Notes under the pieces: generated by a model
Databases searched by the model: none
Told to the model about the DNA's origin: nothing
The model's input: the letters and a program-made list of their open reading frames with translations, nothing else
Shown here: in pieces, positions 15,150 through 33,654 of the stretch
Layout of the letters: each line of letters starts with the position of its first letter
Position numbering within the stretch: position 1 is the first letter of the stretch
From: Acidobacteriota bacterium
GTDB taxonomy: Bacteria; Acidobacteriota; Terriglobia; Terriglobales; Acidobacteriaceae
Length of the DNA stretch: 38,640 bases
Assembly (NCBI GenBank): GCA_003225535.1
Contig: QIAL01000396.1
Span: 1 to 38,640 of the forward strand
Direction of reading: 5' to 3'
Program-made: the position numbers and the translations under genes

Positions 15150-16289
15150 ATGAAACGCTTGCTCGTACGGTTTCTAACCACCAGTCTTCTTTGCCTGGCT
15201 GCTGCTGCTGGCTATGCGCAGACCCCGGCCGACGGCACGCCGCAGCGGTGGACGCCTCGCTACAAAGTCATGCATATGAAAAATGGCCACGCGCTGATCC
15301 CAGCCATTCGGCGGCAGGCCGCTGCCGGCGCCACCATTCCATTGTGGAATTACAGCGTGGTCTCGCCCTTGGACCATCTCACTTATACCGGACAGATGGT
15401 GGGCCGCAGTCCCTTCTATCACGGGTTCCGCTCCACCAGCATTCAGAGTTTTCTGATTCCCGTAAGGTTCGTATTTTCGGATGGAACTGTGCTCGATCCG
15501 ACGGTTTCGAATGCCTGTCTCGGGGCCACGACTCTGAGTGTTGTACAGAATTCACCGATATTCCAGACCACCGACTGGGTCATGAACGGAGTGGATGTGG
15601 GAACGGCGCAGTACATCGATGGTTTTCAACGCGCCAATTTCTGGAACAAGGTATCGGTGGCCGGCAACAGCTATCACAACCCGTTGGCTGTGACCACGCT
15701 CGCAAAAATTAGCGTCACGGTTCCCGCCGCTGACGGCGCGACTACTGCCTTTTTTTGCAATGAGGGGGGAATCGACATCAACTGGTGGGACGCACTCGTC
15801 GAAAACACTATTTTGCCTTCGCTGGTTTCCAAAGGCGTAGGGCCGACAAGCGTACCGATCTTTCTTTTTGACAGCGTTGAAATGTGCGACGTTGGAGGCT
15901 GCGGCATTCTCGGATACCACAACGCTTTTACCCCTGGTGGCGTGCTGCAGACGTACTCGGTCAGCGACTTCGATAATTCCGGATTTTACGGCGGCGATAT
16001 CTCCGTTCTTGCTCACGAAGTCGGGGAATGGATGGACGATCCCCTGACCACCAATCCAACTCCGGCGTGGGGCAACATCGGGCAGGTCGCGGGGTGCCAG
16101 AACAATCTGGAAGTCGGTGATCCTCTGACTGGGACATTCTTCCCGGCGGTCACGCTCGGTAATTTCACTTATGACCCGCAGGAACTAGTGTTCTTCTCCT
16201 GGTTCTTCCGGCAGTCGCCTTCGATTGGCGCTGGTGGCGCCTTCTCGAACAACGGTTCGTTCAACACCAGCCCCCCATCGTGTCCTTGA
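15150..16289 (+). CDS. Exported protein with HEVGE motif, putative zinc metalloprotease
   Basis: 379 residues. The start ATG 15150 is preceded by an excellent AAGGAGG. A Sec signal peptide (MKRLLVRFLTTSLLCLAAAA and on, cleaved after YAQ or before it) leads the mature protein. The segment VLAHEVGEWMDDP holds H289, E290 and E293: this resembles a metallopeptidase helix in which the usual HExxH second His is replaced by Glu, followed by a DDP. Cysteines at CNEGG, MCDVGGCG, AGCQNN and near the C-terminus suggest disulfides. The late YDPQELVFFSWFFRQ segment resembles other exported acidobacterial and actinobacterial proteins I recall. Catalysis is inferred, not shown. It is co-oriented with the ASH-repeat gene 94 bp downstream. 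Confidence 0.8.
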   Translation: MKRLLVRFLTTSLLCLAAAAGYAQTPADGTPQRWTPRYKVMHMKNGHALIPAIRRQAAAGATIPLWNYSVVSPLDHLTYTGQMVGRSPFYHGFRSTSIQSFLIPVRFVFSDGTVLDPTVSNACLGATTLSVVQNSPIFQTTDWVMNGVDVGTAQYIDGFQRANFWNKVSVAGNSYHNPLAVTTLAKISVTVPAADGATTAFFCNEGGIDINWWDALVENTILPSLVSKGVGPTSVPIFLFDSVEMCDVGGCGILGYHNAFTPGGVLQTYSVSDFDNSGFYGGDISVLAHEVGEWMDDPLTTNPTPAWGNIGQVAGCQNNLEVGDPLTGTFFPAVTLGNFTYDPQELVFFSWFFRQSPSIGAGGAFSNNGSFNTSPPSCP

Positions 16290-16383
16290 GGCTGAAATAC
16301 AGGGGAGTGATTTTTGGTTCCCTGCTGAAATGGCCAAGGGATTGAAGCGGGAAAAACGAAAATTGTTTATCACGGAGGCTGTC

Positions 16384-17970
16384 ATGTTGGACCGAACTCA
16401 ACTGATTCGGCTGTGCGGTCTTGTGGTGCTGCTGTCGCTGGCAACGACGGCCTGGTCCGATACCATGACGGGCGTGTCCAGCAAAGCCAGCCAGGGCTCC
16501 AATGACTCCGTGCTCTGGTCCCAACTCGGGGCCGATGCCACCGTTCTCGCCGCCAGCGCCAAAGCGACCTCGGGAGCCGGGGTGGCCGTGAACGTCGCTT
16601 TTGCAGGGGCTAACAGCCTAGCCTCGGCTGTGTGTGCGGCCGCCCCGACCTGCAGTTGGTCGGGAACTGGTTTCGCCTCCGGCGATCGCATCATCTGGAC
16701 TGCCGATGCCGCCGCAAGCGGCAACGGACCCGTAAGCTTGAGCTTTGGCACCAGCGTCTCCGGGGCAGGCGCGTTGATTCAGGCGGACGAACCCGGGCAG
16801 TTCACTGCACTAATCCAAGCGTTCAACGGTTCTACCCTGCTCGGTTCGTTTTCAGTAACGAGCAATGCCACTGGCGATGCGGTTTATGTCGGCATTCTGG
16901 ATCAGACCGGAGCGAACATTACTTCTGTGACTTTCAGTCTGACGGCTTGCGGCACCGCCGATGCCAGTTGCGTACGGTCGGACTTTGGGCTCGATACAGT
17001 CTTCCTTAACGTCGGTTCTGGCTCGGGTACCACCGTCTCGCTCACCCCCACCAGCCTGAACTTCGGCGCGGTGGCTGTGGGTGTCACCAGCGCAGTGCAA
17101 AGGGTCACGCTCAAAAACACCGGTACCGCCGCGCTCGCCATCTCCAGCATCGCGATCACCGGCACCAATAGCACCGAGTTCATCAAAACCGCCACCACCT
17201 GCGGCGCTTCTCTGGCCGTCAAAGCGGCCTGCACCATCAGCGTTGATTTCAAACCTGCCGCGACGGGCGCGCGCGCAGCCGTCATCAGCATCATCGATAA
17301 TGGTAGCGGCAGTCCGCAGCAGGTGCCGCTCAGCGGAACTGGCACCACAGTCAAATTCGCGCCCGCCAGTCTGTCGTTCGGCGACGTGGCCCTAGGCGTC
17401 AGTTCCGTCAAAACCATCACGCTCACCAATATCGCGACCACGGCGCTGTCCATTACCGCAATTGCCATTACTGGCACGAATGCCGCGGATTTCACCCAGA
17501 CTCATACCTGCGGCGCCTCCCTAGCCGCCGGCGCCAAGTGCACCTTCAGCATTACTTTCACCCCTCTAGTCATCGGTACACGCAGCGCATCCCTCAGCGT
17601 GGCCGACAGTGCCGCGGGCAGCCCGCAATTGATACCACTCAAGGGTGTCGGCACCACCGCCAAGCTCGCTCCTACCAGTTTGAACTTCGGCTCCGTCACG
17701 GTTGGCACCACCACCGCTGCCAAGCTCATCACGCTCACCAACATTGGGACGACAGCACTCACGATCACAAGCATCACCATCACCGGAGCAGCCGCGGGAG
17801 ACTTCTCGCAGACTCATACCTGCGGCGCCTCCCTGGCTGCGGGCGCGAATTGCACCATCAGCGTCCAGTTCAAACCCACAGTGGCAGGTAACCGAGGCGC
17901 CGCCATCAGAGTCACCGACAATGCGGCCGGGAGCCCGCAACAAGTGCCTGTCTCGGGTAAGGGCATCTAG
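16384..17970 (+). CDS. Exported protein with three ASH-type (choice-of-anchor D) domains
   Basis: 528 residues from ATG 16384, which has ACGGAGG upstream; the frame is open further but overlaps the previous gene. Signal peptide RLCGLVVLLSLATTAWS. Residues about 25-215 form a unique N-terminal region with one disulfide candidate pair (CAAAPTC). Then three tandem domains of about 103 residues (about 17035-17340, 17347-17652, 17659-17967), each with LxPTSLNFGxVxVG, ITLTNxGTTAL, HTCGASLAAGAxCT and SPQxVPLSGxG, the ASH/ASPM-SPD2-Hydin immunoglobulin-like fold. Such domains bind partners outside the cell or act as spacers. No anchor or sorting signal is seen at the C-terminus. Domains 2 and 3 are the most alike, pointing to duplication within the gene. 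Confidence 0.9.
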   Translation: MLDRTQLIRLCGLVVLLSLATTAWSDTMTGVSSKASQGSNDSVLWSQLGADATVLAASAKATSGAGVAVNVAFAGANSLASAVCAAAPTCSWSGTGFASGDRIIWTADAAASGNGPVSLSFGTSVSGAGALIQADEPGQFTALIQAFNGSTLLGSFSVTSNATGDAVYVGILDQTGANITSVTFSLTACGTADASCVRSDFGLDTVFLNVGSGSGTTVSLTPTSLNFGAVAVGVTSAVQRVTLKNTGTAALAISSIAITGTNSTEFIKTATTCGASLAVKAACTISVDFKPAATGARAAVISIIDNGSGSPQQVPLSGTGTTVKFAPASLSFGDVALGVSSVKTITLTNIATTALSITAIAITGTNAADFTQTHTCGASLAAGAKCTFSITFTPLVIGTRSASLSVADSAAGSPQLIPLKGVGTTAKLAPTSLNFGSVTVGTTTAAKLITLTNIGTTALTITSITITGAAAGDFSQTHTCGASLAAGANCTISVQFKPTVAGNRGAAIRVTDNAAGSPQQVPVSGKGI

Positions 17971-18079: not shown

Positions 18080-18185
18080 GCATGGGTCTTCTCTTTGGTG
18101 GGGACGTGACACCCAGCTCTCGTGGGGCTGATTGGGGATATTTACTTGCCACGCGAAGAACGTCACGCCGTTCCCGGACCAGACC

Positions 18186-21100
18186 ATGGACGACCCAAAA
18201 CCAAGCAGGATCGAGATTGAGGCGGCTACGCTTGTGCCTGATCGCAATCCCGGAAGTCCTTCCCCTGCACAAGACTCCAACGTCTCGCAAACTCCGAAAT
18301 CACCTTTTGACCCCGGTCAAGGTTTCGATGCGCCCACCATTCTGGAAGGCGCTCTCCCGCCCTTGGCTCCGGTGACTGGACAGAAGCCGCCCCCTGATCG
18401 CGATTCACCCCCTCCGCCAGCCAGCACCTTCGGGTCCCCCATTCTTCCGCCGGGAATGGTCATCGGAAACCGCTACCAGATTTTGCAGATTCTCGGCGAA
18501 GGCGGCATGGGTGCCGTGTACAAGGCCAAAGACCTCGAACTCAACCGCGTCATTGCCCTCAAAGTCATCCGGCCTGAACTTGCTAGCAATCCCGAAATTC
18601 TGCAACGTTTCAAGCAGGAACTCATACTCGCCCGGCAAGTCACCGACCGCAACGTGATTCGCATCTTCGATCTCGGCGAGGCTGCCGGCATCAAGTTCAT
18701 CACTATGGAGTATGTAGAAGGACAGAGCCTGTATCAGATCCTTAAAGAGAAGGGCAAGCTGCCGGTTTCAGAAGCCATCAACATCATGCGCCAGATGTTG
18801 AGCGGTTTGCTCGCTGCTCACCGCGAAGGCGTCATCCATCGCGATCTGAAACCCGGCAATATCATGCGCGATAGCCAGGGCCGCGTCGTCGTCATGGACT
18901 TCGGACTCGCCCGCTCCCTCGTCGGCGACGGCATGACCCGCACCGGAACCATGATGGGCACGATGGAATACATGTCTCCGGAGCAAGCGCAGGCCAAGGA
19001 ACTCGATGCCCGCTCCGACATTTTCACCTCGGGACTGATCTGCTACGAACTGCTCGCTGGCAAAATGCCGTACCACGCCGACAGCGTGGTCGCCAGTTTG
19101 CTCAAGCGCATGCAGGAGCGTGCGATCCCGCCGTCGGATTGGGATGCCTCCATCCCGCAACCAGTCAGCGAACTGGTGTCCAAGTGCCTGGAGCGCGATC
19201 CCGCGGACCGCTGGCAGAGTGCTGAGGAAATTCTCGACCGCATAGACGAGATTCAGGGCAAACGGCCGATGTCGGTACTGACCAGCCGTCCGCCTGTGTC
19301 GTTGACCGCACAGTCCGTGTACAGCGCGCCAGCAGCGTCGCCTCCAGGTGCCAGCAGAAAACGTTTGGTGATGATCCTGGTCGTAGCAGCGATTGTGGGC
19401 GCCGCAGGAACTGCCGGATGGTTCCTGAAGCCGCGGCCGCAATCGGCGCCCGTACACCAAAACGTCAGAGTCCTGCTGGCTGATTTCCGGAACGCGACCG
19501 CTGATTCGGTTTTCGATGGCACCATCGAACCGACGGTCGCCCTGCAGCTCGAAGGCGCTCCGTTCATCAGCGTCTTTAACCGCGCCCAGGCTCGCTCGAC
19601 GCTCGCCGAACTCAAGCCCGGCACCACGCAACTCGATGAAGCCAACGCCCGGCTCGTCGCTGTGCGCCAAGGGGTTGACCTTGTGGTCAGCGGTCAGGTG
19701 ACCGCGTCCGGCTCCGGATACAAGATCCTCAGCAAAGTCACTGATACCCTCACCGGCAAGACCATCGCCACCGAAGTCGCCGACGCGTCAGACAAATCCG
19801 GCATCCTGCGCGCCGTAGCCAATCTCGCGGACCAGATGCGTACGGCACTGGGCGATACGGCCTCGGAGTCGGCCAAGCTTGCCGAGGCGGAAACCTTCAC
19901 CACCGCCTCCCTCGAAGCGACCCACGAATACGCCGAGGCCCAGGAAGCACGCTACGCCGGAAAGACTGCCGAAGCGATCAAAGGATTCCGCCGCGCTGTC
20001 GAACTCGATCCTAACTTCGGCAGTGCCTATGGAAATCTCGGTGCGCTCTACTGGAATGAGGGCAATCAGGCCGACGCCATCAACTACTACAAGCTGGCGA
20101 TGCAGCACATCGACCGCATGACCGACCGTGAGAAATATCGGACGCGGGGCGGCTACTACCTTGCGGTTTCCGATGGGGACAAAGCCGTCGAGGAATTCAG
20201 CGCCCTCGTCAAGCAATATCCTGCCGACAGCATGGGCTTGAGCGCACTCGCCCACGCGTACTATCTGCGTCACGATATGGCCCAAGCTGTGGATGCCAGC
20301 CGGCGCGCGGTCGAGATTTATCCCAAGAACGTCGTCTACCGCACCAACGCCTCTCTCTATGCGCTGTTCGCCAGCGACTACGACACTTCCGAGCGGGAGG
20401 CGCAAGCCGTCCTTCAGATCAATCCAATCTATGAGGACGCCTACACGATTCTGGCTTTGTGCGAAACCGCAAAGGGAAATTTCGACCAGGCCAACCAACA
20501 CTGGCACAAGGTCGAGAGCCTTAGTGCGGGAGGCGCTTCTTCCGCCGCAGGGGGTCTTGCTGACCTCGCGCTTTATCGCAGCGATCCTGAACAGGCGATC
20601 TCCGCTCTGAAGAAAGGCATCGACGGCGACACCGTCGCCAAAGCCAGCGACGCGGCTGCAAAGAAATACGTTCTCCTCGCCGAGGCCCAGCTCATGGCAG
20701 GCAACAAGTCAGGCGCCCTGCAGTCGGTGAAGCAAGGCGTCGCCATGAGCAAAGCCAACGTTCTGTTCGCCGCCGCGCGCGTCTACTTAATGGCCGGTGA
20801 TACGTCGCAGGCCACTGCCCTCGCCTCCGAGCAATCGAAACAACTCGAAGGCACACCGCAGTCTTTTGGCAAGTTGATCGAAGGGGACATTCAGCTTTCG
20901 CGCGGCAACGCCAAGCAAGCCATTCAGCTCTACAAGGAATCGGAGCGGTTGCTCGATTCATGGCTCGCACATTTCGATCTTGCGCGCGGATATATCGCGG
21001 CCGGAGCTTTTACCGAGGCCAGCACCGAACTGGAAACCTGCCTCAAGCGCCGCGGCGAAGCCACGGACATCTACATCGACGAGCAACAAACCTTCCGCTA

Positions 21101-21260
21101 TTTTCCTGCCACCTATTATTACCTGGGCCGCGCGCTCGAAGGGCTCAAGAGCTCCGGCGCCGCCGATGCCTACAAGAGCTTCCTCGCGATGAAAGTGCCC
21201 AATGCGCACGATCCCATGGTGGACGACGCCAGGAAACGACTGGCGAAGATTACCCCATAG
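18186..21260 (+). CDS. Membrane Ser/Thr protein kinase with C-terminal TPR sensor region
   Basis: 1024 residues. After a Pro-rich leader (1-95) comes a Hanks-type kinase domain (about 97-355): glycine loop GEGGMGAVY, K126 in ALKV, HRDLKPGN with catalytic D220, DFG at 238, and the APE-equivalent MSPEQA. A transmembrane helix follows (RLVMILVVAAIVGAAGTAGWF, split; about 393-414). The C-terminal part should lie outside the cytoplasm: a domain VRVLLADFRNATADSVFDG resembling the FlgO/TolB-like fold (about 427-572), then about ten TPR-type helical repeats to the end (FRRAVELDPNFGSAYGNLGA as example). This is a known acidobacterial architecture. The substrate and ligand are unknown. ATG 18186 is chosen over 18132 from the start of conserved sequence; its Shine-Dalgarno is weak. 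Confidence 0.92.
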   Translation: MDDPKPSRIEIEAATLVPDRNPGSPSPAQDSNVSQTPKSPFDPGQGFDAPTILEGALPPLAPVTGQKPPPDRDSPPPPASTFGSPILPPGMVIGNRYQILQILGEGGMGAVYKAKDLELNRVIALKVIRPELASNPEILQRFKQELILARQVTDRNVIRIFDLGEAAGIKFITMEYVEGQSLYQILKEKGKLPVSEAINIMRQMLSGLLAAHREGVIHRDLKPGNIMRDSQGRVVVMDFGLARSLVGDGMTRTGTMMGTMEYMSPEQAQAKELDARSDIFTSGLICYELLAGKMPYHADSVVASLLKRMQERAIPPSDWDASIPQPVSELVSKCLERDPADRWQSAEEILDRIDEIQGKRPMSVLTSRPPVSLTAQSVYSAPAASPPGASRKRLVMILVVAAIVGAAGTAGWFLKPRPQSAPVHQNVRVLLADFRNATADSVFDGTIEPTVALQLEGAPFISVFNRAQARSTLAELKPGTTQLDEANARLVAVRQGVDLVVSGQVTASGSGYKILSKVTDTLTGKTIATEVADASDKSGILRAVANLADQMRTALGDTASESAKLAEAETFTTASLEATHEYAEAQEARYAGKTAEAIKGFRRAVELDPNFGSAYGNLGALYWNEGNQADAINYYKLAMQHIDRMTDREKYRTRGGYYLAVSDGDKAVEEFSALVKQYPADSMGLSALAHAYYLRHDMAQAVDASRRAVEIYPKNVVYRTNASLYALFASDYDTSEREAQAVLQINPIYEDAYTILALCETAKGNFDQANQHWHKVESLSAGGASSAAGGLADLALYRSDPEQAISALKKGIDGDTVAKASDAAAKKYVLLAEAQLMAGNKSGALQSVKQGVAMSKANVLFAAARVYLMAGDTSQATALASEQSKQLEGTPQSFGKLIEGDIQLSRGNAKQAIQLYKESERLLDSWLAHFDLARGYIAAGAFTEASTELETCLKRRGEATDIYIDEQQTFRYFPATYYYLGRALEGLKSSGAADAYKSFLAMKVPNAHDPMVDDARKRLAKITP

Positions 21261-21493: not shown

Positions 21494-24400
21494 TTAGTGT
21501 GCTCCGGTGATCGTGACGTTATCGAACGTGTACTGGGCCGTGTCGACTGCATAATTGCCCGTCGCGATAATACGGAAATAGTAGGTACCGGCCGGCAGAG
21601 TCCCGCTTATCGGCAGGGTGTAGCTGGTTTGGGCATAGAAGCTCGGCGGCGTGAAGTTCGCAATGGTTGTCGGCACAGGAGTGATGAAATTCGGATCGGT
21701 ATCGTACTGCAATGAGAAGCTCTGGGCAGTGTTGCACCCGGTAATCTGTACTCCGCCGTTCTGGCAATCGTTGTTGAACTCGTGGAAACTGACAGCTGCT
21801 CCTGAGATCGTCGTGCTATTCGTGATCGCAAAGTTATAGCTCGATCCGGAGACAACGAAATTCACATCGATGCAATTCGCGACCACGCATCCATAACTGT
21901 TGATACCGAGGTCTTGGGCGTTGGACACGGTAAACGTACTGCCGGAGATATTGGGCGCAGCAAACGACGGCGGCGCCGAGACCGACGCCGCACCCTGCGG
22001 CACGTTGTCAAAGTTGTACTGCATGAGCGTCGTCACGCTGCCGGGCGCCGCGAGCGTGACCATCGTGGCATAGACCGATTGATCACTCAATCTCACCACG
22101 ATGTTGTAACAGCCCACGGGGGCCGCTCCAGTCGCCCAGTTCACGGTGTAGACGGCATCGGTGGGCTCAAACGCGAATGATCCGGTGCTGGTCGCTGCAT
22201 CGTACAGAACAATGCTGGCTGCGCCGCTCGGTGGAGCGCCGGAACATCCGGCGTTCGCGTACACCGTCACGTTATTGAGCGTGACGTTTTGTGCGGTGTC
22301 GTTGCCGACTCCGGGGATGTTCAATTCGAACATCACCGGAATCGTGGATCCGGCGTCAAACGTACCCGCATTCGAAGGGTTCGCAGGCGCCGCGCCAGTC
22401 GTCAATGGCGCATCGAAGCCTGCAAACGTATCTGCAGAGAGGTGCACGATGGTGGACCACTGGGCGGTGTCGTTGGTGGTGACCACGAGGTTGTAGCAGC
22501 CCGCCGTCGCGCCCGTGGTGTTCCAACCGAAAACGAAACGGTTGTTTGGACTGTCGTACGTGAAAGCAGCTTGCCCGGTGGACGCGTTGTAGAGGGTGGT
22601 ACCGGCTCCCGCGGCCTGGCCCGCGCACGCTGGATTCGGTATGGCCACAATTGACGTAAGCGTAGCCGGGTTCGAGATATAAGCATTCGCCGCGTCCTGC
22701 AACCGCCACGTGATCGGGATGGTGGTGCCGATGGTGAAACTTCCTGAGTCGCTGGGCTGAGGCGGACTTGCCGGGTTGGGCGGATTCAGCATCACTGCCC
22801 GCTGGAGCGGCGACTGGAATCCGGTGAAGTTGTAGATCACCAGGTAGCTGACCGTCGGGTCAGGACTAGCGGCGTTCCCAGCCTGGTCCACGGCATGGAT
22901 GCTGAACATGGCGGGCCCGACAGAACTCGCTGGATACGGCGAGGTGGACGGATTCGCGGTGCAGGTGGTTGTATCGCCACCCGAGTTATCGCCGCAGGTG
23001 AAGTTCGGGATGATCTGCTGGTTCAGCACATACGTCTGCGCGACCGGCGTAGTGATCATGACTGCAGGAGTTGCTGTGTCGATCAGCACCGGGCCGAACA
23101 AGGCAGTGCCGGTGTTTCCAGCGATATCCTGGCAACTCCCGCTGGCCGTATACGAACCCTGCGATGTGTAGCTCGTGCTGCCCACGATCGAACCGGTCTG
23201 CACGCCGGAGAGCGCATCACCACAGGCGAACGTTACTACCACGGATTGGTTCGTCCATGTCCCTGCTGTATAGACCGCTCCGCTTGAGTTGTTGAGATTC
23301 GCCGTGGCAGTGACGGTGGGAGGCGTCGTGTCAATCAGAATCGGCCCGAACGAGACGGGCGGAGCGTTGTTACCGGCGAGATCCTGGCACGAAGCATTCA
23401 GCGTGGCGCCTGCTACCGATGTATTTACAGTAAGCGTTACCGTGGCGGCCGAAGTCAACGCATTCGGCTGACTGTACGTGAGCGTCGAACCGACAGCCGG
23501 GATGCCGGTGATGATCGGGTTTGTTATCCCGCTCACGACCGGTCCGGATAAATTGTCCGCGCATGTGAATGTCACGGCTACGCTGTGATTCACCCATGTA
23601 CCTGCCGTGTAGGCGGAGTTGGTGCTAATGGCGGGCGCAGTCTGGTCGATGTTGATGCCATTCACGGTGAACGCCGCGGAGTTCCCTGCCTTGTCCGCGG
23701 TGGCTCCGGGGACGCTCTGACTGGCGCCGTCGGTCGAGAGAATTGTCGGCACAGGACAAGTTGCAATGCCCGATTGCTGTCCGGCCGGCCCATTCAGCGG
23801 GTCCGGATCGCTGCATCTGAACGTCACAGTCACCGGAGAGTTGTACCAGCCGTTGTTGTTAGACGCACGATCGGGCTGTCCTGAAATCGCCGGCGGCGTT
23901 TTGTCAATATTGAAACCGGACGAAGTGAACGGTAAGGCCGTGTTTCTTGCGTAGTCTGTCACGGTCATGACACCCGAAACGGGCTTGCCTTCGGTAGTGA
24001 GCGTCATCGCGCCAATGCCGCTCGCGTTGATGCCGGTGGCGGCCGACGGAGACGTCGCAACCGCCGAGGCTACTCCAGAGAGATTGTCACCGGTAGAGTA
24101 AGGAATGACGACCGGTGTGTTGTACCAGCCCGGAGCGCTCTGAGAAGTCGCACTCACTCCAAAAGCCAGCGTTGGCGGCACGGTATCGACGGTCAACTGG
24201 GAAAGCAGGTTGGTCGGCGGCACCGTCATGGTGGTCGCGGTAGCTAGAACATCCGCGGCAGGGTTCACGTAGTGGCCGCTCGCGCCGGCCGTGAACGTCA
24301 CACGTCCGTTGCCACTCATCGCGGTGCAGGTGAAATTGAAGATCTGGGCACCAGTGCCCGCAATGCTGGCGCTGGCAGGCATTGGCGAAGTGCAAATCAC

Positions 24401-27400
24401 AACCGGCACGGGACCAGATGGCGTCCCCGCCGCTGTGGCATTGACCGTCAATCCCGCAATCACATTGGTTGCATTAGCCGGTCCGGTGCTATTTACGGTA
24501 ACTGCCACGGTGGCTACATCCCCAGCCTTCATGTAGCCCGTGCTTCCGACTTCATTCGCGACCTGGGCATCTACACTGGCAATCGTGAATTGGTTCACCT
24601 CCAGCGGCACTTGCTGCACGTCGAGCGCTGGCGTGAGTGAAGCTCCTGTACTCGCCGAGTCCTGCACCTGCACGCTCACGGGATAGGTGCCAGGCTGCGC
24701 CGTCACAACGCCCGTGCTGATCTGGCCCGAGACGTTGAGGGTCAACGGAGCGACCAGCAAGGGCTGCGTCGAGTTCGGCGGCGGTGCTGGGATCACTGCA
24801 ACCGGATTCGCTGGATCGGCCGGAATCGTCCACGCCGTCGCCCCGAATCCGCCAACCGAGGCAAACGCCGTGTTCGTGTAATGCTGCCCCACCACCGCGA
24901 CGGGCAGTGCCGACGTCGTGATGGCGAGCGATCCAGGAGGAGTATTTTGGCCGGTGTTCGGAGTGAACGCATTTGCCTGGGTCAGGAACGAAGACACTGT
25001 CTGCTGCACCGGCGGCGCAACCACGCGCAGCGTGACGCGGTTTCCTTCGCCCGGGGACAACGAAAGCGTCGAACTCGCCGGATTCGATGGCGGCTGCACG
25101 GTAAGATCGCAGGTCGGATTGATGTTCGTCGAGTCGCGATTCACGACGGGGCTCTGGTACACCTTGTGCTGCACCAACTGGCAGACCGAACACTGCGTAC
25201 TGCAACTGCTTGGGTTGGCCGAGCAACTCGCGGGACAACACTGGACCCCCGAGGACTTGACCAGTTCTGTGGTGTTGTAACTGGAACTGGTATTGCCCTT
25301 GTTGTTTACCTTCCAGCTGTAATCAGTCAGGCTGTTCTCCGCCAGGTTCGTGATTTTCGGCGTGAAGATATCGGGGCTCACGATTTTTGGCGTAAAGATC
25401 TTGGGCGTAAATATTTTGGGCGTGAAGATCGTGTCCACGATGGTTGGATTGGCCACCTGGATCGAGTTAATCTTCGGAGTAAAAATCGACGTAATCTTGG
25501 GCGTGAAGATTGTGGGTGTCTCGATCGCTGGGGTGTTGTTGGCAACCGTTCCAATTTTCGGTGTGAAAATCGCGGGTTGGCTGATCTTGGGCGTGAATAT
25601 GCCGCTCGTCGGATCGGGAGGCGCGTCCACCGACGGGTTGTATTCTTCGCCGGCCGCGATTGGCAAGTTCGCATAAGGCGCTTCCACGTCCGGATTATCG
25701 TTGTCAGTATTCAGGAAATCTGCTTCAGCCAGCGATGGGTTGGTCGTGTCGCCATTCAACACCGCCAGCGCTTGCAATCCGGCGAAGCGGGGAGCTGCGG
25801 CACATCCGTTCGAACCCGGAATGCAAGCCATCTGGGCCACCAGGACATTGATGCTGGCATTCGCTCCTGTCGAAGGCACATTGATCGCTTCGGACAGAGT
25901 CGTCTTCGGGTTGATAGCTAAATCCAGGTAACAATTTGGGGTCCCCGGGAAACTTGCGGGCACAGCCGCTGTGTTGCACACTCCTGTCACACCCTGGCTG
26001 GTTGACGCTTCCCCCAGAATGAGACGGTAGTAGGCCGGAGATCCCGGAGGCGTCGTGCTCAGCGGCGCCATTGTGTTTTTCACCAGCAGCGAATAGGACC
26101 GCTGCGGCGGAGCATTTGTATTCACCGGCTGAACTTTGGCGTTCTCGCGGAACCGTACGATCAGTCCGTTGCTGATGCGCGAGGTGTACACATTCTGATT
26201 GCGGTCGCCGCTATACGAAGAGGTTCCCGGCGTTCCATCCGCGTTGGTGACGTTCACCAGGTTGCATGCAGGCTGGATTGTCGTGCACGTCGGACATGCC
26301 AATCCCGTTCCAGAGTACGTGCTGATTTGCGAATTGCCACCGTTCGGAGGCACATACTGCGTCCAGTCCTGGGAGCCGTTCACAGCCGGCGGAGGTACGA
26401 CGTCGCGGTTATCTGTCCACGCCACGTGGAAATCTGGAGCATTCGTCGCCCCCGTTGCATCCGTCGCCAGCGTGTTAAACACCCACGAATTCCCGCTGGG
26501 CATGATGCTTTGCGCAGCGATGTCGATATAGTCGCCGATAAACGGAGTAGTCCCCTGCACAAACATGGGCAAGTTCGGTGGATTGAAGAATCCCTGCTCG
26601 ATCTGCCCGTTGCCATCGTCGACGTAGTACGGGTATTGCGAGATCTGGAACCCTTTAAAGGTCGCCGGACCCGCGGCGGGATTGATCACCGCGCCGTATA
26701 CGTCAATCGTGTGGCGCACACCCGAATTCGGATCCGAAATCAGCGGGGTGAACACCGTCGCGGGAGTCGAAACAGTGCTGCCCGGAATCGCCTGATCAGT
26801 GACCGTGACCTGCGAGAGGTCGCTGCACGGCGGGCTCGCGCATTGCAGCACGCTCTGCATGTTGTCGCGCCTCGAATCGAACCACGCCAGCATGAGCTTG
26901 CCATACGCGAAGTTCAACGACGGATTGAACTGGTGTCCATAGGTCGAGGCGGTCGGCGCCGTGCCGTCGGCTACATATGGCGTGGTCCAGGTGCTCGAAC
27001 CCTTCGGCAGGGTCGTGATCATGATTCTCGATCCGTACGTTCCCGCCGTTGGCCCGTTAAACCGCTGCGAGTAGGCGAGCCACGCTCGCCCCGTCCCATC
27101 GACGGCCAGACTGGGAACATCCAGCGAACGAAACGTCGTCCCAGTCGCTTGCGGCTGGTCGAACACCGATCCGGGAGGATATGGATTCTTTGTTGTAGGT
27201 GGTACGAATGTGTAGGCCGGAGGCGGCGCGCTGAACGACCAGCCGCCATTTGTTGAAACCGCGTACTGAATGGCATCCGGCTGATTCTGATTTCCTGGCA
27301 CGCCAATCTGCCGCCAGGCAACGATCACATTTCCTGTCGTAGGATCGATCGCAGCTACAGTCCCCTGCGCCAGTTTCTGGGCTTGGCTCAGGATCTGCGG

Positions 27401-27925
27401 TTGGTTCCACGTTGCGCCGCAGTTTGTCGAGCTCACCACCTTAATCTTCGAAGCAGGATTGTTTTGCGACCCATTAAATTGCGTATACACCACATAGACG
27501 TAACCGCTACTGAAGGTTTGGCCGTTGATCTTGCACGTCGCCGTCCGACCCGGCCTTGGGATGTCGACCGCGATCCATGGCTTATCGAGAAACTGGCCTG
27601 AAGTTCCGGTGTCGACCAAATTCACGCCGATGTACAGGAATGGGTTTCCGTGGGTCGTACCGTTTGCATTGGATTGCAGATACGCGCCGTCGCCATTTCC
27701 TTTGTTGTTCAGGTCCTGAAGAGTGGCAACAAAAACTCCGCTGGGCGATCCCGTCCCGCGGTTAAACACCAGCCCGCTGTAATACAACAATCCATTTGTT
27801 CCTGCCCGCACGGTGGGATCGGTCGCGACGGTGTAGGCGTGCAGGGGAGATGCCTTGCCAACGGTGGAGGTGTCCTGCGGATATCCCGGAAGCAGGGTAC
27901 TCTTCCATGTGTCGCCGCCATCCAA
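21494..27925 (-). CDS. Giant secreted multidomain protein, main body
   Basis: 2143 residues in one frame; the frame opens at a TTG (27925) that is really mid-gene, since the signal peptide and first 74 codons lie one base out of frame just upstream. Residues 1 to about 560 look like a sialidase-type beta-propeller with Asp-box-like turns (LDGGDTWKS, STNCGATW, STNGGWSF). Residues about 775-858 hold eight FTPKI peptides. A Cys-rich patch (QCCPASCSANPSSCSTQCSV) follows. From about 1010 come Ig-like segments, then five OmpL47/Ig-like repeats (GWYNTPVV, GWYNSPVTVTF, GTWVNHSVAVTF, GTWTNQSVVVTF, IPNFTCGD; about 1265-1650), two PxKF-like modules (about 1700-1950) and a unique C-terminal jelly-roll-like segment. 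Likely an adhesin or surface glycan-binding protein; no enzyme activity is proven. No sorting signal is seen at the C-terminus. Confidence 0.85.
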   Translation of the reverse strand: MDGGDTWKSTLLPGYPQDTSTVGKASPLHAYTVATDPTVRAGTNGLLYYSGLVFNRGTGSPSGVFVATLQDLNNKGNGDGAYLQSNANGTTHGNPFLYIGVNLVDTGTSGQFLDKPWIAVDIPRPGRTATCKINGQTFSSGYVYVVYTQFNGSQNNPASKIKVVSSTNCGATWNQPQILSQAQKLAQGTVAAIDPTTGNVIVAWRQIGVPGNQNQPDAIQYAVSTNGGWSFSAPPPAYTFVPPTTKNPYPPGSVFDQPQATGTTFRSLDVPSLAVDGTGRAWLAYSQRFNGPTAGTYGSRIMITTLPKGSSTWTTPYVADGTAPTASTYGHQFNPSLNFAYGKLMLAWFDSRRDNMQSVLQCASPPCSDLSQVTVTDQAIPGSTVSTPATVFTPLISDPNSGVRHTIDVYGAVINPAAGPATFKGFQISQYPYYVDDGNGQIEQGFFNPPNLPMFVQGTTPFIGDYIDIAAQSIMPSGNSWVFNTLATDATGATNAPDFHVAWTDNRDVVPPPAVNGSQDWTQYVPPNGGNSQISTYSGTGLACPTCTTIQPACNLVNVTNADGTPGTSSYSGDRNQNVYTSRISNGLIVRFRENAKVQPVNTNAPPQRSYSLLVKNTMAPLSTTPPGSPAYYRLILGEASTSQGVTGVCNTAAVPASFPGTPNCYLDLAINPKTTLSEAINVPSTGANASINVLVAQMACIPGSNGCAAAPRFAGLQALAVLNGDTTNPSLAEADFLNTDNDNPDVEAPYANLPIAAGEEYNPSVDAPPDPTSGIFTPKISQPAIFTPKIGTVANNTPAIETPTIFTPKITSIFTPKINSIQVANPTIVDTIFTPKIFTPKIFTPKIVSPDIFTPKITNLAENSLTDYSWKVNNKGNTSSSYNTTELVKSSGVQCCPASCSANPSSCSTQCSVCQLVQHKVYQSPVVNRDSTNINPTCDLTVQPPSNPASSTLSLSPGEGNRVTLRVVAPPVQQTVSSFLTQANAFTPNTGQNTPPGSLAITTSALPVAVVGQHYTNTAFASVGGFGATAWTIPADPANPVAVIPAPPPNSTQPLLVAPLTLNVSGQISTGVVTAQPGTYPVSVQVQDSASTGASLTPALDVQQVPLEVNQFTIASVDAQVANEVGSTGYMKAGDVATVAVTVNSTGPANATNVIAGLTVNATAAGTPSGPVPVVICTSPMPASASIAGTGAQIFNFTCTAMSGNGRVTFTAGASGHYVNPAADVLATATTMTVPPTNLLSQLTVDTVPPTLAFGVSATSQSAPGWYNTPVVIPYSTGDNLSGVASAVATSPSAATGINASGIGAMTLTTEGKPVSGVMTVTDYARNTALPFTSSGFNIDKTPPAISGQPDRASNNNGWYNSPVTVTFRCSDPDPLNGPAGQQSGIATCPVPTILSTDGASQSVPGATADKAGNSAAFTVNGINIDQTAPAISTNSAYTAGTWVNHSVAVTFTCADNLSGPVVSGITNPIITGIPAVGSTLTYSQPNALTSAATVTLTVNTSVAGATLNASCQDLAGNNAPPVSFGPILIDTTPPTVTATANLNNSSGAVYTAGTWTNQSVVVTFACGDALSGVQTGSIVGSTSYTSQGSYTASGSCQDIAGNTGTALFGPVLIDTATPAVMITTPVAQTYVLNQQIIPNFTCGDNSGGDTTTCTANPSTSPYPASSVGPAMFSIHAVDQAGNAASPDPTVSYLVIYNFTGFQSPLQRAVMLNPPNPASPPQPSDSGSFTIGTTIPITWRLQDAANAYISNPATLTSIVAIPNPACAGQAAGAGTTLYNASTGQAAFTYDSPNNRFVFGWNTTGATAGCYNLVVTTNDTAQWSTIVHLSADTFAGFDAPLTTGAAPANPSNAGTFDAGSTIPVMFELNIPGVGNDTAQNVTLNNVTVYANAGCSGAPPSGAASIVLYDAATSTGSFAFEPTDAVYTVNWATGAAPVGCYNIVVRLSDQSVYATMVTLAAPGSVTTLMQYNFDNVPQGAASVSAPPSFAAPNISGSTFTVSNAQDLGINSYGCVVANCIDVNFVVSGSSYNFAITNSTTISGAAVSFHEFNNDCQNGGVQITGCNTAQSFSLQYDTDPNFITPVPTTIANFTPPSFYAQTSYTLPISGTLPAGTYYFRIIATGNYAVDTAQYTFDNVTITGAH
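25352..25603 (-). repeat. FTPKI peptide-repeat block within the giant protein
   Basis: Eight copies of the pentapeptide FTPKI, seven to eight preceded by Ile, in 84 residues. Three are directly abutted (TIFTPKIFTPKIFTPKIV). The others are separated by 4-20 residues of variable linker. The codons differ between copies (for example ATA TTC ACG CCC AAG ATC against ATT TTC ACA CCG AAA ATT), so the peptide, not the DNA, is conserved. Confidence 0.95.
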
Positions 27926-27926
27926 C

Positions 27927-28148
27927 GAACATGTCTACCGTCCGGTAGTCGTTGGCGCCCCCCAGCATGTGTTCCGGGTTGCGGCTCGAGACCGCGATCG
28001 AAGGCTCATTCTGCCGCTGCAGGTAGGGATCGCCTGCTGGCCAGTTTGTTCCTGAAACCATGTTGATGTTTTGGCTCGCGACCTGGGCGATCCCTGCTAC
28101 GCATAACGACACCACAACGACCAACACAGCTAGACAGCGGACGACCAT
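27927..28148 (-). CDS. Signal peptide and N-terminal segment of the giant protein (frame-broken)
   Basis: Begins at ATG 28148, with GGAGGG 7 bp upstream, and encodes a Sec signal peptide (MVVRCLAVLVVVVSLCVAGI, cleaved near AQV) and then NEPSIAVSSRNPEHMLGGAN and DYRTVDMF, the usual opening of secreted BNR/sialidase-like proteins. The natural continuation (an Asp box, LDGGDTWKS) is in the frame that starts at 27925: after ATG TTC (27932-27927) a single extra G at 27926 must be skipped. Continuing in its own frame it ends about 55 residues later in unrelated sequence. Either a real frameshift mutation, a sequencing or assembly error, or a recoding site. Confidence 0.85.
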
Positions 28149-29214: not shown

Positions 29215-29538
29215 AATTTGCTTAGCCTCTAACCAACCGATACTTTCGCAGCGAACCACTAACCACGATATTCGCAGATCCTTTCGTATCGACAGCTACG
29301 TCATGATCATCCTTAAGCTTAGTCCTGCGCATCCGCATGCAGTTTTCTGCAACCGCAATGAGCAAAGGTACCAGATGGGCACGTCTGGAGATTCCCGTTG
29401 CGGCACTCCTTGCGCGATGTCTCTCCAAGACAAGTCGCCGCTTAGCCACCGAGAGTACACTTCCGTGAAAGTGCGCGGATCTCAAATTCGCGGCAGACGC
29501 CTGGAGTCACGCCTGGCGAATGCGTGCGGGAGGAGCCC
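29215..29538. other. Divergent intergenic region upstream of the TonB receptor
   Basis: 324 bp separating the unknown exported gene (-) from the TonB-dependent receptor gene (+). A small minus-strand frame (29222-29485) ends in a plausible-looking hydrophilic stretch but has no good start or recognisable family. No convincing sigma-70 promoter pair was identified by eye. A 5-bp hairpin (CACTT/AAGTG) lies at 29458-29473. Confidence 0.45.
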
Positions 29539-32500
29539 ATGCGAGGCATAAAGGGGTGTGCTCTTGTTGTAACAGTGTGGCTGGCCTCGGCCGGCATAGC
29601 GGCGGGACAGGGATCATCCTCGTCGCTTCAGGGAACGGTCACGGACCCAAGCGGAAGTGCCATTGCGGGCGCAAAGATCGTGCTCTCCAACGATGAATCC
29701 AGGATCGAGCGTTCGACCGAGAGTGATGCACGAGGAGAGTATCGACTGCTAGCCCTGCCGCCCGGCACTTACAGGCTAGCGGTGAACTCCAAGGGCTTCT
29801 CGCAGTACGTGCAGACTGGACTGCAGCTGCTGGTCAGTACTCCAGCAACCGTGAACATTCAGTTGAAGGTCGGAGCAACGACCGAGAACGTTACGGTCAC
29901 CAGTGAAGCCCCGGCGCTCAATCTGGTCGACGCATCCATCGGCAATCCCTTTAACGAGACACAGGTAAAACAGATCCCTTTGGAGGGCCGTAACGTTCCC
30001 GACCTGCTCAGCCTGCAGGCGGGCGTTGCCTACACAGGCAACCGGTCAGATAACGAGACGCCCGCGGTAAAGGACCAGGATTCGCGAAGTGGCTCGGTGA
30101 ATGGCGCTCGCAGCGACCAAAGCAATATCACCCTGGATGGCGTCGATGTCAATGACCAGTCCCACGGATATGCCTTCACCTCCGTTCTGCCCGTCACGCT
30201 CGATTCAGTGCAGGAGTTCCGGGTCACAACCTCGAACTACAATTCCGATCAAGGCGGAGGATCCGGAGCACAGGTCTCTCTCGTCACCAAGAGCGGCACG
30301 AATAAACTCCACGGATCTCTGTACGAGTACAACCGCAACACATTCACCAGCGCCAGCGACTACCTGCTGAAGCAGCCGCTGAAACTCAACCGGAATATCT
30401 TCGGGGCATCGGTCGGAGGGCCGGTTCAGAAGGACCGTCTTTTCTTCTTCGCCAACTATGAGGGTACGCGACGCCGCGAAGCGAGCAGCGCCGTGCGCAG
30501 TATTCCAACCCCTTCCATGTGCGCTGGAAATTTGAGCTACTACGCCTATACGAACAACGATTCCAGCCAGCCTGTGGTGACGCAGACTCTCTCGGCTTCA
30601 CAACTCCATGGTCTTGATCCGTGGACGGGGCCAACCCCGGGGATCAATTCGGCCATTGAAAACGCGGGCAAGACTGGTTATTTCGATACAACGTTCTGTA
30701 ACGGCAAGTTCAACACCAACGATACGTCGGTGGGCGATGGTCTCAACTATTCCGGCTATCGTTTCGCCGCCCCCATCAAAGACGACAATAACGCCTTCAT
30801 TGCGCGGATTGATTACCATCTCACCGCGGATGGCAAGCACACTCTATTCTGGCGCGGCGCTCTGCAGAATGAATACAACCCCGAGGAACCCTTTCTGCCC
30901 GGTTCTTCCCCGATGACAGTCTTTACTGACCACAGCAAAGGATTCGCGTTCGGGTATACGGCAGTCCTGAGTTCGAACAAGGTGAATAACTTTCGATGGG
31001 GTTTTACACGCCAGAGCCAGGGCTTTGTGGGGAGCTCAAATCAGGAATGGAACGTCTTCTACGGACTCGACCAAGGGATCAATTACACCCACAACGCACA
31101 GACGCCGGTGCATGATTTCGTGGATGATTTTTCCTGGACCAAAGGCGCGCACACCCTGCAGATCGGCGCCAACATCGGCATTGCGCGAAACCCGCGCGTC
31201 AGCTATGAGCATTCCTTCAATATCGGCAAGGGTGCAACGAACTGGATGTCTCCGACTGGGTTTTCGAACACCGCTATACACAGTGATTCATTGAATCCGC
31301 TGAATTGCGGAGCAATCGGAAGTTCGACGGGCGGAAGTCCTCTCGATCCCTGCCACGGCGGGTATGCCGAGCCCATTTCCTCCCCTCAGTTTGATTACCC
31401 GATCATGGCAATGTTCGGCATGGTCTCCGACGTGATCGCAAATTACAACTACGACAAAAACGATAACCTGTTGGGTGGAGGCGCGCCCGGCGTGCCGGTC
31501 AAGCGCCGTTACGGGCTGAACTGGTATGAGTTCTACGAACAGGACTCTTGGCGCGTTAAGCCTAATCTGACGGTCACGTATGGGGTGCGTTGGTCAATGT
31601 TTCCCCCACCGTGGGAAGTGAATGGTTACCAGGCGTCCCCGACTTGCGATCCCGCAGTGAATGACCCGGCTTCAGGCGGAGTGGGGTGTCCCTCATGGTC
31701 TTACGATCTGGGCTCCGAATTCGCGCACAACGCGCAGGCGATGAAGCAGGGCATCGGCTACGATGCTACGCCCCTGGTCTCGTTCATTTTGGGTGGTCCC
31801 GGAAATCCTGGCCCAGGTTTCTATCACTTCGAAAAATCAGACCTCTCGCCGCGTGTCTCTTTTGCGTACTCACCTCGGCCGCACGGCGGTTGGCTCAAGA
31901 GCTTTTTTGGCGATTCAGACAAAACCGTCATTCGCGGTGGGTTCAGCAAAGTGTACGACCGCGCCGGAATGCAACTGCTCAGCACGTTCGATGCAAACGC
32001 TCCCGGCGGTTTGGCTGCCACGGTGCAAAATCCCTGCTGCTTCGCCGTCGATCCAGCGGGCTCGGGCACTCCCTACGATACGGCTGACGGTGTGCCTCGA
32101 ATCAGCAACATCAACCAGGTTCCATCCACCAACATCTTCGGCAACATCTTCAAACAGCCGAATCCGCAAAGCGGAGCCTTCCCTCAGGCGCCAGCGCCCA
32201 TGGGGCAAGCCATCACATGGGGAGTTGACCAGTCCATCAAAACGCCTTATGCCTATGCATTCGATCTGTCCATTGGCCGCGAACTACCCAAGAGATTTTC
32301 GCTGCAGCTGACCTATGTGAACCGTCTTGGCCACAACCTTCTAACACAACGCGACCTGCGACAGCCGATCGATCTCTACGACCCCCAGTCTGGAGTCGAC
32401 TATTTTTCTGCCGCGACTGCACTGGCCAAGGTCGCGAAGCAGCAGATCGCCGGTGGAGGAATCAATCCCTCCGTGGTTACCGACGCCATGGTAGATGCCG

Positions 32501-33654
32501 CGGGGGGAAAGCCGACCTCTGCTTTTTGGCACCATATGATTTCTCCGCTGGTGGACCCCAATTCATCTTACGCAAACCTCTACACTCCGTTTGTCGCCGC
32601 ACCCGGCCCCAATGGCCTGATCCAGGCGGTTTACGACCTTTACTATGATCCGTTCCTGTCCTACCTCGGCAACGAAGTCGTGGGCCTCGGATATACAGAC
32701 ATTTATTACGGGCTCACGGATACCACCTATGCAAACTACTATGGGTTCAAAGGCCCGTCCTGCAATGACCCGCTTGGCGTCGGCTTCTGCCCGGGGACTT
32801 CTTTAAACAACCAGGCGACCAGCATGTTCGGATGGAGTTCGATCGGCAAGTCGGATTACAACGGGCTTCAAGTCAGCCTTCGGAAACAAATGAGCCATGG
32901 GCTGCAATTCGATCTGAACTACACCTTCTCCAAGTCGCTCGATTACACCTCGGGTGCGACGCGGCTTGGCTTCAGTTCGAGCACGAACGTCGGAGCCCCG
33001 GGCAGTCGGCTGGCGAATGCATTTTCTCCCCAATCACGGTACGCGGTTTCTGATTTTGATGCCAAGCACCAGATTAATGCCAACTGGATTGCCGAATTAC
33101 CTTTCGGCAAAGGCAGACACTTCGCCGGGACGGCTGGCCCAGTGGCCAACGCGATGATCGGCGGTTGGGAGCTTTCCGGGGTCGCGCGTTGGACCAGCGG
33201 TTTCCCCTTCTCGGTAGACAACGGCAATTTCTGGTCTACCAACTGGGACGAGCAGGGGATTGCCCAGATGGTGACGAAGCCAAAAACCGGCCGCTTCGTG
33301 CAGTCGGGAGGAGCCGTCAGCGTGTTTCCCAATTCAAGCGCCGCGTGGGCCGACTTCCAGAACCCGTATCCAGGGCAGGCTGGGTCGCGTAACGTCCTGA
33401 GGGGCGATGGATTTGCTGGTTTGGATATGGCCTTGAATAAGCGCTGGACGATCATCGAAGGCCAGAGCCTGCAATTCCGCTGGGAGGTGTTCAACGTCCC
33501 GAACCTACATCGCTTCAACGTCGCCTCGGGACTGCAGTCCGGAGCCGCCTGTGCCTGCATCGCTTCCATGCAAGACCAGTTTACTTTCGGCGATTACACT
33601 GGCCTGTCAACTTCGAACCGTGTCATGCAGTTCGCATTGCGCTACGAATTCTGA
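29539..33654 (+). CDS. TonB-dependent outer-membrane receptor, Oar-like, with carboxypeptidase-regulatory domain
   Basis: 1371 residues from ATG 29539; GGAGG lies 5 bp upstream, so this start is preferred to the GTG at 29524. Signal peptide (about 1-24, cleaved near AAGQ). Residues about 30-112 are a CarboxypepD_reg beta-sandwich (SLQGTVTDPSGSAIAGAKIV and GEYRLLALPPGTYRL). The plug follows (IPLEGRNVPDLLSLQAGV, then NITLDGVDVNDQ and VTKSGTNKLHGSLYEYNRN), then a beta-barrel to a terminal aromatic residue (ALRYEF), as expected for Bam-inserted porins. This class is abundant in Acidobacteriota and is thought to import oligosaccharides or peptides. The substrate is unknown; no TonB/ExbBD genes are in the window. 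An APC permease gene follows after 49 bp. Confidence 0.94.
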   Translation: MRGIKGCALVVTVWLASAGIAAGQGSSSSLQGTVTDPSGSAIAGAKIVLSNDESRIERSTESDARGEYRLLALPPGTYRLAVNSKGFSQYVQTGLQLLVSTPATVNIQLKVGATTENVTVTSEAPALNLVDASIGNPFNETQVKQIPLEGRNVPDLLSLQAGVAYTGNRSDNETPAVKDQDSRSGSVNGARSDQSNITLDGVDVNDQSHGYAFTSVLPVTLDSVQEFRVTTSNYNSDQGGGSGAQVSLVTKSGTNKLHGSLYEYNRNTFTSASDYLLKQPLKLNRNIFGASVGGPVQKDRLFFFANYEGTRRREASSAVRSIPTPSMCAGNLSYYAYTNNDSSQPVVTQTLSASQLHGLDPWTGPTPGINSAIENAGKTGYFDTTFCNGKFNTNDTSVGDGLNYSGYRFAAPIKDDNNAFIARIDYHLTADGKHTLFWRGALQNEYNPEEPFLPGSSPMTVFTDHSKGFAFGYTAVLSSNKVNNFRWGFTRQSQGFVGSSNQEWNVFYGLDQGINYTHNAQTPVHDFVDDFSWTKGAHTLQIGANIGIARNPRVSYEHSFNIGKGATNWMSPTGFSNTAIHSDSLNPLNCGAIGSSTGGSPLDPCHGGYAEPISSPQFDYPIMAMFGMVSDVIANYNYDKNDNLLGGGAPGVPVKRRYGLNWYEFYEQDSWRVKPNLTVTYGVRWSMFPPPWEVNGYQASPTCDPAVNDPASGGVGCPSWSYDLGSEFAHNAQAMKQGIGYDATPLVSFILGGPGNPGPGFYHFEKSDLSPRVSFAYSPRPHGGWLKSFFGDSDKTVIRGGFSKVYDRAGMQLLSTFDANAPGGLAATVQNPCCFAVDPAGSGTPYDTADGVPRISNINQVPSTNIFGNIFKQPNPQSGAFPQAPAPMGQAITWGVDQSIKTPYAYAFDLSIGRELPKRFSLQLTYVNRLGHNLLTQRDLRQPIDLYDPQSGVDYFSAATALAKVAKQQIAGGGINPSVVTDAMVDAAGGKPTSAFWHHMISPLVDPNSSYANLYTPFVAAPGPNGLIQAVYDLYYDPFLSYLGNEVVGLGYTDIYYGLTDTTYANYYGFKGPSCNDPLGVGFCPGTSLNNQATSMFGWSSIGKSDYNGLQVSLRKQMSHGLQFDLNYTFSKSLDYTSGATRLGFSSSTNVGAPGSRLANAFSPQSRYAVSDFDAKHQINANWIAELPFGKGRHFAGTAGPVANAMIGGWELSGVARWTSGFPFSVDNGNFWSTNWDEQGIAQMVTKPKTGRFVQSGGAVSVFPNSSAAWADFQNPYPGQAGSRNVLRGDGFAGLDMALNKRWTIIEGQSLQFRWEVFNVPNLHRFNVASGLQSGAACACIASMQDQFTFGDYTGLSTSNRVMQFALRYEF

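Follow-up and report, generated by a model that had tools for sequence, protein, structure and literature searches.

The described systems closest to the repeat region reported here are the pentapeptide repeat proteins (PF00805, Rfr fold), which include MfpA, HetL, and Alr5209. The family is defined by at least eight contiguous pentads of the form (A/C/S/V/T/L/I)-(D/N/S/K/E/I/R)-(L/F)-x-x (PMC8145042, PMC7337050), and Pro is outside the consensus that the second paper gives for position i-2 (PMC7337050). In the solved structure of Alr5209, as tabulated there, phi of the i-2 residue is about -70 on three of the four faces, and phi of the i+2 residue is positive on three faces (PMC7337050, Table 2). 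The Knotted Solenoid fold of Brevundimonas is described as a beta-solenoid, and its closest relatives without a knot are the pentapeptide repeat proteins; the Brevundimonas coil is three-sided, with conserved Phe and Cys (PMC13123833). That residue pattern is absent from the pentads described here, and the Brevundimonas fold was dropped as a match. Near-uniform pentads are found in synthetic beta-solenoids (4yfo, 5dra, and the beta1 series), which we take to be designed quadrilateral solenoids. Short Pro-containing repeats are also known from elastin-like VPGXG and NANP sequences, in which Pro recurs every few residues beside a turn-prone neighbour.

The window analysed here is a stretch of 38,640 nucleotides from an Acidobacteriota bacterium (contig QIAL01000396.1). 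Its minus strand encodes, in the open frame 21494-27934, 2146 residues of a large secreted protein, which carries eight exact copies of FTPKI, each with Ile before it, from the first F codon starting at 25597 to the last I codon ending at 25352. An earlier sequence-only reading had counted eight copies, three of them abutting, and both counts were confirmed. The F codons of the abutting copies lie at 25426, 25411, and 25396, and the remaining spacings are 10, 20, 8, 19, and 10 residues. The pentad array with its eight IFTPK(I) copies occupies 25352-25600 and aligns to the NPNIS array of a relative (L008). A chance origin was ruled out, as the composition of the whole protein predicts 0.0006 copies and no more than two appeared in any of 20,000 shuffles of the 86-residue block. 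The 18-base spellings of the eight copies are all distinct, and codon differences between the copies reach 1.13 times the background of the same amino acids' codons elsewhere in the ORF. Therefore, the DNA of the copies was not freshly duplicated, in agreement with what the sequence-only reading had concluded from their varying codons. Shortly before the array, the peptide EEYNPSVD (25625-25648, minus strand) resembles by eye the E-[VIL]-Y-[NDS]-P pentads found near the start of many relatives' arrays.

The region upstream of the array (26141-27928, minus strand) may form a sialidase-like (BNR) propeller. This assignment is a lead only, based on alignment and a weak Pfam BNR_2 match (PF13088; 16.8 bits, E 0.0045) below the cut-off of 31.4. 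It is followed by an Ig-like domain (25748-26101, minus strand; residues 1-118 of the AlphaFold2 model), for which the best PDB similarity was 8cem_B (Z 7.1, rmsd 2.4, 81 aligned residues), tied with other beta-sandwiches; a Z below 8 may reflect just a common arrangement. After the array comes a second beta-rich domain (DYSWKVNNKGNT ... VTLRVVAPP; 25010-25324, minus strand), which lies outside the structure matches and whose strand pattern and conserved GNT motif suggest that it is also Ig-like. Near the C-terminus, a PxKF ('rightmost') domain (22052-22381, minus strand) passed the NCBIfam cut-off (NF038114; 67.2 bits against 35, E 1.5e-18), with residues 1852-1961 as the better of two stretches. 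The sequence-only reading had placed the repeats at the junction of a propeller-like and an Ig-like half; its flanks were roughly right, but the array itself sits between the Ig-like and the second beta-rich domain.

A search with the protein found the array region in four of 150 related genomes, including the window's own, where it occurs at a single place. FTPKI was common to one further genome among the 150 (G049, locus L006; seven copies). In a same-genus relative (G012, L007), FTPRI/NTPRI stands in its place, and the eight Lys of the window align to Arg (seven) or Gln (one). The relative in G108 (L008) is 33% identical across the array region, and its array is mostly (NPNIS)n. With L008 as the query, matches were obtained in 61 of 399 genomes of the class, of which 22 (G108 counted) fell below E 1e-20; at least two weak matches, L033 and L037, are by eye ordinary pentapeptide repeat proteins. 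Scanning named genome contigs with the single window-region protein gave no relative, and the family was reached via the G108 relative and then with a six-sequence alignment as the query, a 17-sequence alignment being too diverse for searching. The contig scan yielded 43 loci, mostly in Acidobacteriota MAGs (Terriglobia, Bryobacterales, Vicinamibacterales, Blastocatellia, Aminicenantes, and others); single MAGs labelled Myxococcales, Betaproteobacteria, and Deltaproteobacteria were also among them, and such labels may err. No description of this array family was found among the matches listed from the open-licence PMC literature.

The relatives share a layout of a propeller-like head, an Ig-like domain, the array, a second beta-rich domain, and a variable tail, and in those aligned the array keeps the same position behind the head, between the two beta-rich, Ig-like segments. 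As an example of the tail, the C-terminal part of the L007 ORF was identified from its sequence as NHL-like repeats (VAVDSAGNLYIAD), unlike the tail in the window.

Arrays were examined in 68 loci. Removal of 11 duplicates left 57, of which 52 had at least six copies of the modal pentad. For the tree, L023 (two copies), L076 (four copies), L080 (period six), and L081 (atypical) were dropped, giving a set of 53. Modal pentads were rotated to the best fit of the frame N-P-x-[IV]-x, a procedure that favours the frame, and the window pentad then reads T-P-K-I-F at positions i+2, i-2, i-1, i, and i+1. In this set, i-2 was P in 48 of the 53 modal pentads (A, Q, or F in the other five), i was I, V, or L in 51 and I, V, L, A, or W in all, i+2 was N in 46, and i-1 was D or N in 40. 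The median share of an array's pentads that are modal was 73%. Thirty pentad types were distinguished over the 53 rows, including NPDIE, NPDIS, NPNIT, NPSIT, NPSVG, GPAIT, GPGIT, QPEIA, NQNIS, NFDLT, NPNWS, NPNAP, NADIE, and TPKIF of the window, one of the least canonical with its Thr at i+2 and its Phe at i+1. Two of the arrays dropped from the tree depart from the common form: L080 repeats with gaps of six residues where the other relatives have a period of five, and the acidobacterial L081 combines an acidic insert with two pentad kinds (NPRVM and SALLN types) in one array.

The five-residue register was kept through interruptions. Among the gaps between non-adjacent successive modal pentads, 129 of 145 were multiples of five, compared with about 29 by chance; as related sequences are not independent, no probability is given for this count. 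Interrupting pentads such as NAEVY and NVRVA stay in frame. Of the 16 exceptions, six were from L080, two from the window (its 8- and 19-residue spacings), one from L006, and one each from seven further arrays, and L007, too short for the gap count, has one more.

On a tree built from the flanks only, the 30 pentad types require at least 31 changes over the 53 rows. This is near the floor of 29, so the pentad types are distributed by lineage. A starred group (100) unites the window with L006 and L007; it lies within a seven-row set (support 91), and the other four members of that set are NPDIT. The nesting of the window group among NPDIT rows makes TNPDI to FTPKI the likely path, as read from a quick tree with 17 of its 50 inner branches open. 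The array is very probably one lineage's version of a five-residue frame, with FTPKI as such not the conserved unit; judged from the sequences, the conserved feature is the frame P-x-[IV]-x-[NT]. The earlier idea that FTPKI is itself a conserved functional motif thus found no support in the comparison, as one other of the 150 genomes shares it and the other relatives have other pentads. Two paralogues on contig JAHECP010000025.1, approximately 13.6 kb apart, have different pentads, NPDVE (L067) and NPDIS (L078).

Codon usage within the arrays was then compared with that of the surrounding ORFs. Across 52 arrays, codon differences among identical pentads had a median of 0.89 of the same-ORF background (range 0.58 to 1.43). 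In the closest pair, L016 and L079, codon agreement was 0.87 for copies in place against 0.43 for shifted copies, which indicates that each copy was inherited on its own. The same pattern was weaker for L025 and L028 (0.76 in place, 0.53 shifted). Agreement in place between the window and L006 was 0.31, below that of shifted copies (0.49), and synonymous sites in the remaining pairs had no clear memory of position. These data support the earlier proposal that selection maintains the peptide as the codons diverge.

The array peptide was more conserved than the flanks in 19 of 21 hand-chosen pairs, equally conserved in one (L022/L024), and less so in one (L006/L007; 0.67 against 0.75), a comparison in which the array is favoured because repeats align readily with each other. 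In L030/L069, array peptides agreed at 0.98 and flanks at 0.91, with codon agreement of 0.51 inside and 0.54 outside the array; in L056/L062, the corresponding peptide identities were 97% and 79%. L015 and L017 have 106-residue array stretches of the same layout that differ at 15 residues, 14 of them N versus S at i-1 and one F versus L, and their flanks are 80% identical. Such an array-wide N/S change together with near-saturated codons is expected if the copies must match each other.

The frame resembles that of pentapeptide repeats (A[DN]LXX), with Pro in place of Ala. The two have in common the period of five, the aliphatic residue at i, the usual D/N at i-1, and the common N at i+2; in contrast, Pro at i-2, near-identical copies, and a secreted multi-domain context set the present arrays apart from PF00805 proteins. 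One of the 16 members of set A5, L071 (NADIE), passed the PF00805 cut-off (42.9 bits against 20.2); it has Ala at i-2 and belongs to an eight-member starred clade with NPD[IV]x arrays. The NCBIfam model penta_Alr5209 was matched by five of the 16 (best 9.4e-12). For the L054 array (NPDIE), phmmer gave an E of 1.2e-18 with the synthetic solenoid 4yfo and, among natural pentapeptide proteins, 4.7e-5 (NP275-NP276) to 0.0099 and weaker, while the L015 array (NPNIT) and the L061 array (NPDIT) matched solved pentapeptide solenoids at 8.5e-14 and 1.1e-5, respectively; two repeats with equal period can look alike through convergence, which limits these matches. The reversed L054 array (119 residues) gave no PDB match at E up to 10, a small control of one sequence. 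In all, the sequences of four relatives match solved members of the fold. Synthetic solenoids were the best PDB matches of the NPDIE and NPNIT arrays; unlike these arrays, they are not natural proteins, and the 4yfo stretches inspected have mostly Ala, not Pro, at i-2.

The window array itself gave no PF00805 match and no PDB sequence match, and Pfam and NCBIfam returned just a sub-threshold Extensin hit there (PF02095; 10.2 bits, compared with 60.1 for L054 and a cut-off of 105), which is compositional. Its longest uninterrupted stretch comprises about five pentads (three FTPKI, VSPDI, and FTPKI) with Pro at i-2, short of the eight contiguous pentads of the published consensus, and Ile occupies the hydrophobic position i in all eight copies. 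The sequence-only reading would be refuted if the motif proved to be a known domain repeat; on this point, the window array matches no Pfam repeat above the cut-off, but the repeat region to which it belongs is PF00805 in the homologue L071.

The backbone geometry and the structure predictions give a mixed picture of the fold. A phi of about -70 suits Pro and a positive phi suits Asn or Gly. On the other hand, the residue before a Pro disfavours the alpha-L shape needed by type II turns, and Pro is without the amide that would close such a turn. When the block was modelled with AlphaFold2, as the sequence-only reading had proposed, the Ig-like domain was obtained, and the window array had pLDDT 28-41 and no secondary structure. 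The L054 array was predicted similarly (pLDDT 29-40, no secondary structure), in contrast to the Ig-like domain before it (84-94). The propeller fragment of that model was also low, with residues 1-104 mostly below 50, which suggests that shallow alignments blunt the result for the array; with confident structure in neither array, the fold is unproven, and values this low indicate neither the presence nor the absence of a right-handed quadrilateral beta-helix. Matches listed by Foldseek for the L054 model and by VIA-align for the window model were mainly complement, integrin, chaperone, and other beta-sandwich domains. The absence of solenoids from these matches is uninformative, given the low confidence of the arrays in both models and the extent of the VIA rows (residues 1-120). 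Non-modal pentads showed no excess at multiples of four pentads (202 of 1001 pairs), the 20-residue periodicity that a four-sided coil might give.

The related proteins thus carry arrays at the same place, with strict register, codon drift at constant peptide, and, between close relatives, array-wide letter differences. We consider that the FTPKI block is a register-locked pentapeptide-repeat beta-solenoid serving as a spacer, with a probability of about 0.5. In this model, the array would most likely coil into a solenoid of beta-strands like that of pentapeptide repeat proteins, with Ile pointing inward at i and Pro replacing the usual Ala at i-2, and would act as a stalk that holds the propeller-plus-Ig head away from the tail. 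A spacer appears to be the most economical reading of the array's place between Ig-like segments behind the head. The other residues would stack in ladders of like residues, so that selection would favour copies that match one another and leave the exact pentad free to change from lineage to lineage. Of the three roles named in the sequence-only reading, a beta-solenoid-like linker fits best, with the reservation that AlphaFold2 gave no confident array structure. A stronger proposal, which we put forward tentatively and regard as rather doubtful, is a proline-type solenoid with obligatory ladder matching, in which the copies stay identical through selection, with no homogenisation of the DNA, and all letters of the set shift together, as in the N/S change in 14 pentads or the step from TNPDI to FTPKI.

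The similarity of the copies could instead arise at the DNA level alone, by slippage or gene conversion with no selection on the peptide. Some arrays do contain few DNA types (4 for 14 copies in L068, 6 for 17 in L057), codon agreement in the L025/L028 array is highest at an offset of 15 residues (three pentads), possibly a trace of segmental duplication, and two distant FTPRI copies in L007 share 18 identical bases. From these signs, DNA exchange seems to occur, but it is not the main force keeping the copies alike: the window copies are all distinct in DNA, median codon diversity is 0.89 of background, and in L016/L079 each copy retains its own codons in place. Homogenisation alone is therefore very unlikely. 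Even less credit can be given to a processing or cross-linking site at FTPKI, the first of the roles suggested earlier. Lys is present in all eight window copies, but in the same-genus relative it is replaced throughout by Arg or Gln, and in 50 of the 53 modal pentads its place is taken by D, N, S, A, E, or G. The different pentads at the same place among relatives argue against any sequence-specific site of this kind, and we regard it as scarcely credible.

Identical peptide copies with free codons would also be expected of a ladder of short binding motifs whose partner, a cell-wall polymer or another surface protein, co-evolves with the pentad in each lineage. The distribution of types by lineage and the different pentads kept by L067 and L078 on one contig agree with it; however, binding motifs carried on a linker would not have to keep a fixed register of five across interruptions, and the I, V, or L at position i looks like a core, so we consider a binding ladder improbable. 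More weight is due to an extended, flexible or elastic spacer with one beta-turn per pentad (N-P-x-I type I turns) and no hydrophobic core, for which the elastin VPGVG and malaria NANP repeats are turn-forming analogues. Pro every fifth residue in most modal pentads, the two arrays for which AlphaFold2 gave no structure, and matches of the proline-rich Pfam family Extensin_1 to all 16 members of A5 are in line with such a spacer, the Extensin_1 scores shown (L054; seven of ten proteins in one set) being below the cut-off. Against it, nearly every array retains the hydrophobic position i and the register of five; A, Q, or F replaces Pro in five modal pentads, which a Pro-turn spring should forbid; and the PDB matches of the forward L054 array were absent from the reversed control. 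The arrays also differ from elastin-like and NANP repeats in that Gly follows Pro in one of the 53 modal pentads and in the constancy of I/V/L at i. A flexible spacer is accordingly possible, and we do not favour it.

The odd short motif of one genome is thus a local dialect of a repeat region found in secreted proteins of many Acidobacteriota, and the comparison provides a natural series of 53 versions of a single pentapeptide array in a shared context. Should the solenoid reading be correct, these are ready-made scaffolds and a test of how protein-identical copies persist with diverging DNA; otherwise, what is left to describe is a family of register-locked spacers, most of them rich in proline. 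If the proposal of obligatory ladder matching is true, the arrays would represent natural concerted evolution driven by protein structure, not by DNA exchange, and a new beta-solenoid subclass.

The protein is known from genome sequence only, much of it from MAGs, and the start of the window gene is irregular. A signal peptide and conserved start (MVVRC ... QNINMVSGTNWPAGDPYLQRQNEPS ... NDYRTVDM; 27930-28148, minus strand) lie in another reading frame than the rest, the frame changing within 27925-28148 between the NDYRTVDM part and SLDGG (27928 on). In L006, L007, and L008, both parts belong to one open frame, and about 18 of their residues are by eye absent at the window's frame break. Because of these missing residues and the frame change, a small deletion appears to have disrupted the window gene, unless the assembly is in error. 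Several neighbouring genes were also identified: an enolase-superfamily (MR_MLE) enzyme (7014-8384, plus strand), a glycoside hydrolase of family 92 (12576-14894, minus strand), a protein of ASH/HYDIN-like Ig domains (16225-17967, plus strand), and a Ser/Thr protein kinase with TPR repeats (18132-21257, plus strand). Divergent from the array gene, a large protein of outer-membrane type is encoded at 29524-33654 (plus strand), and its sequence indicates an N-terminal carboxypeptidase-regulatory-like segment.
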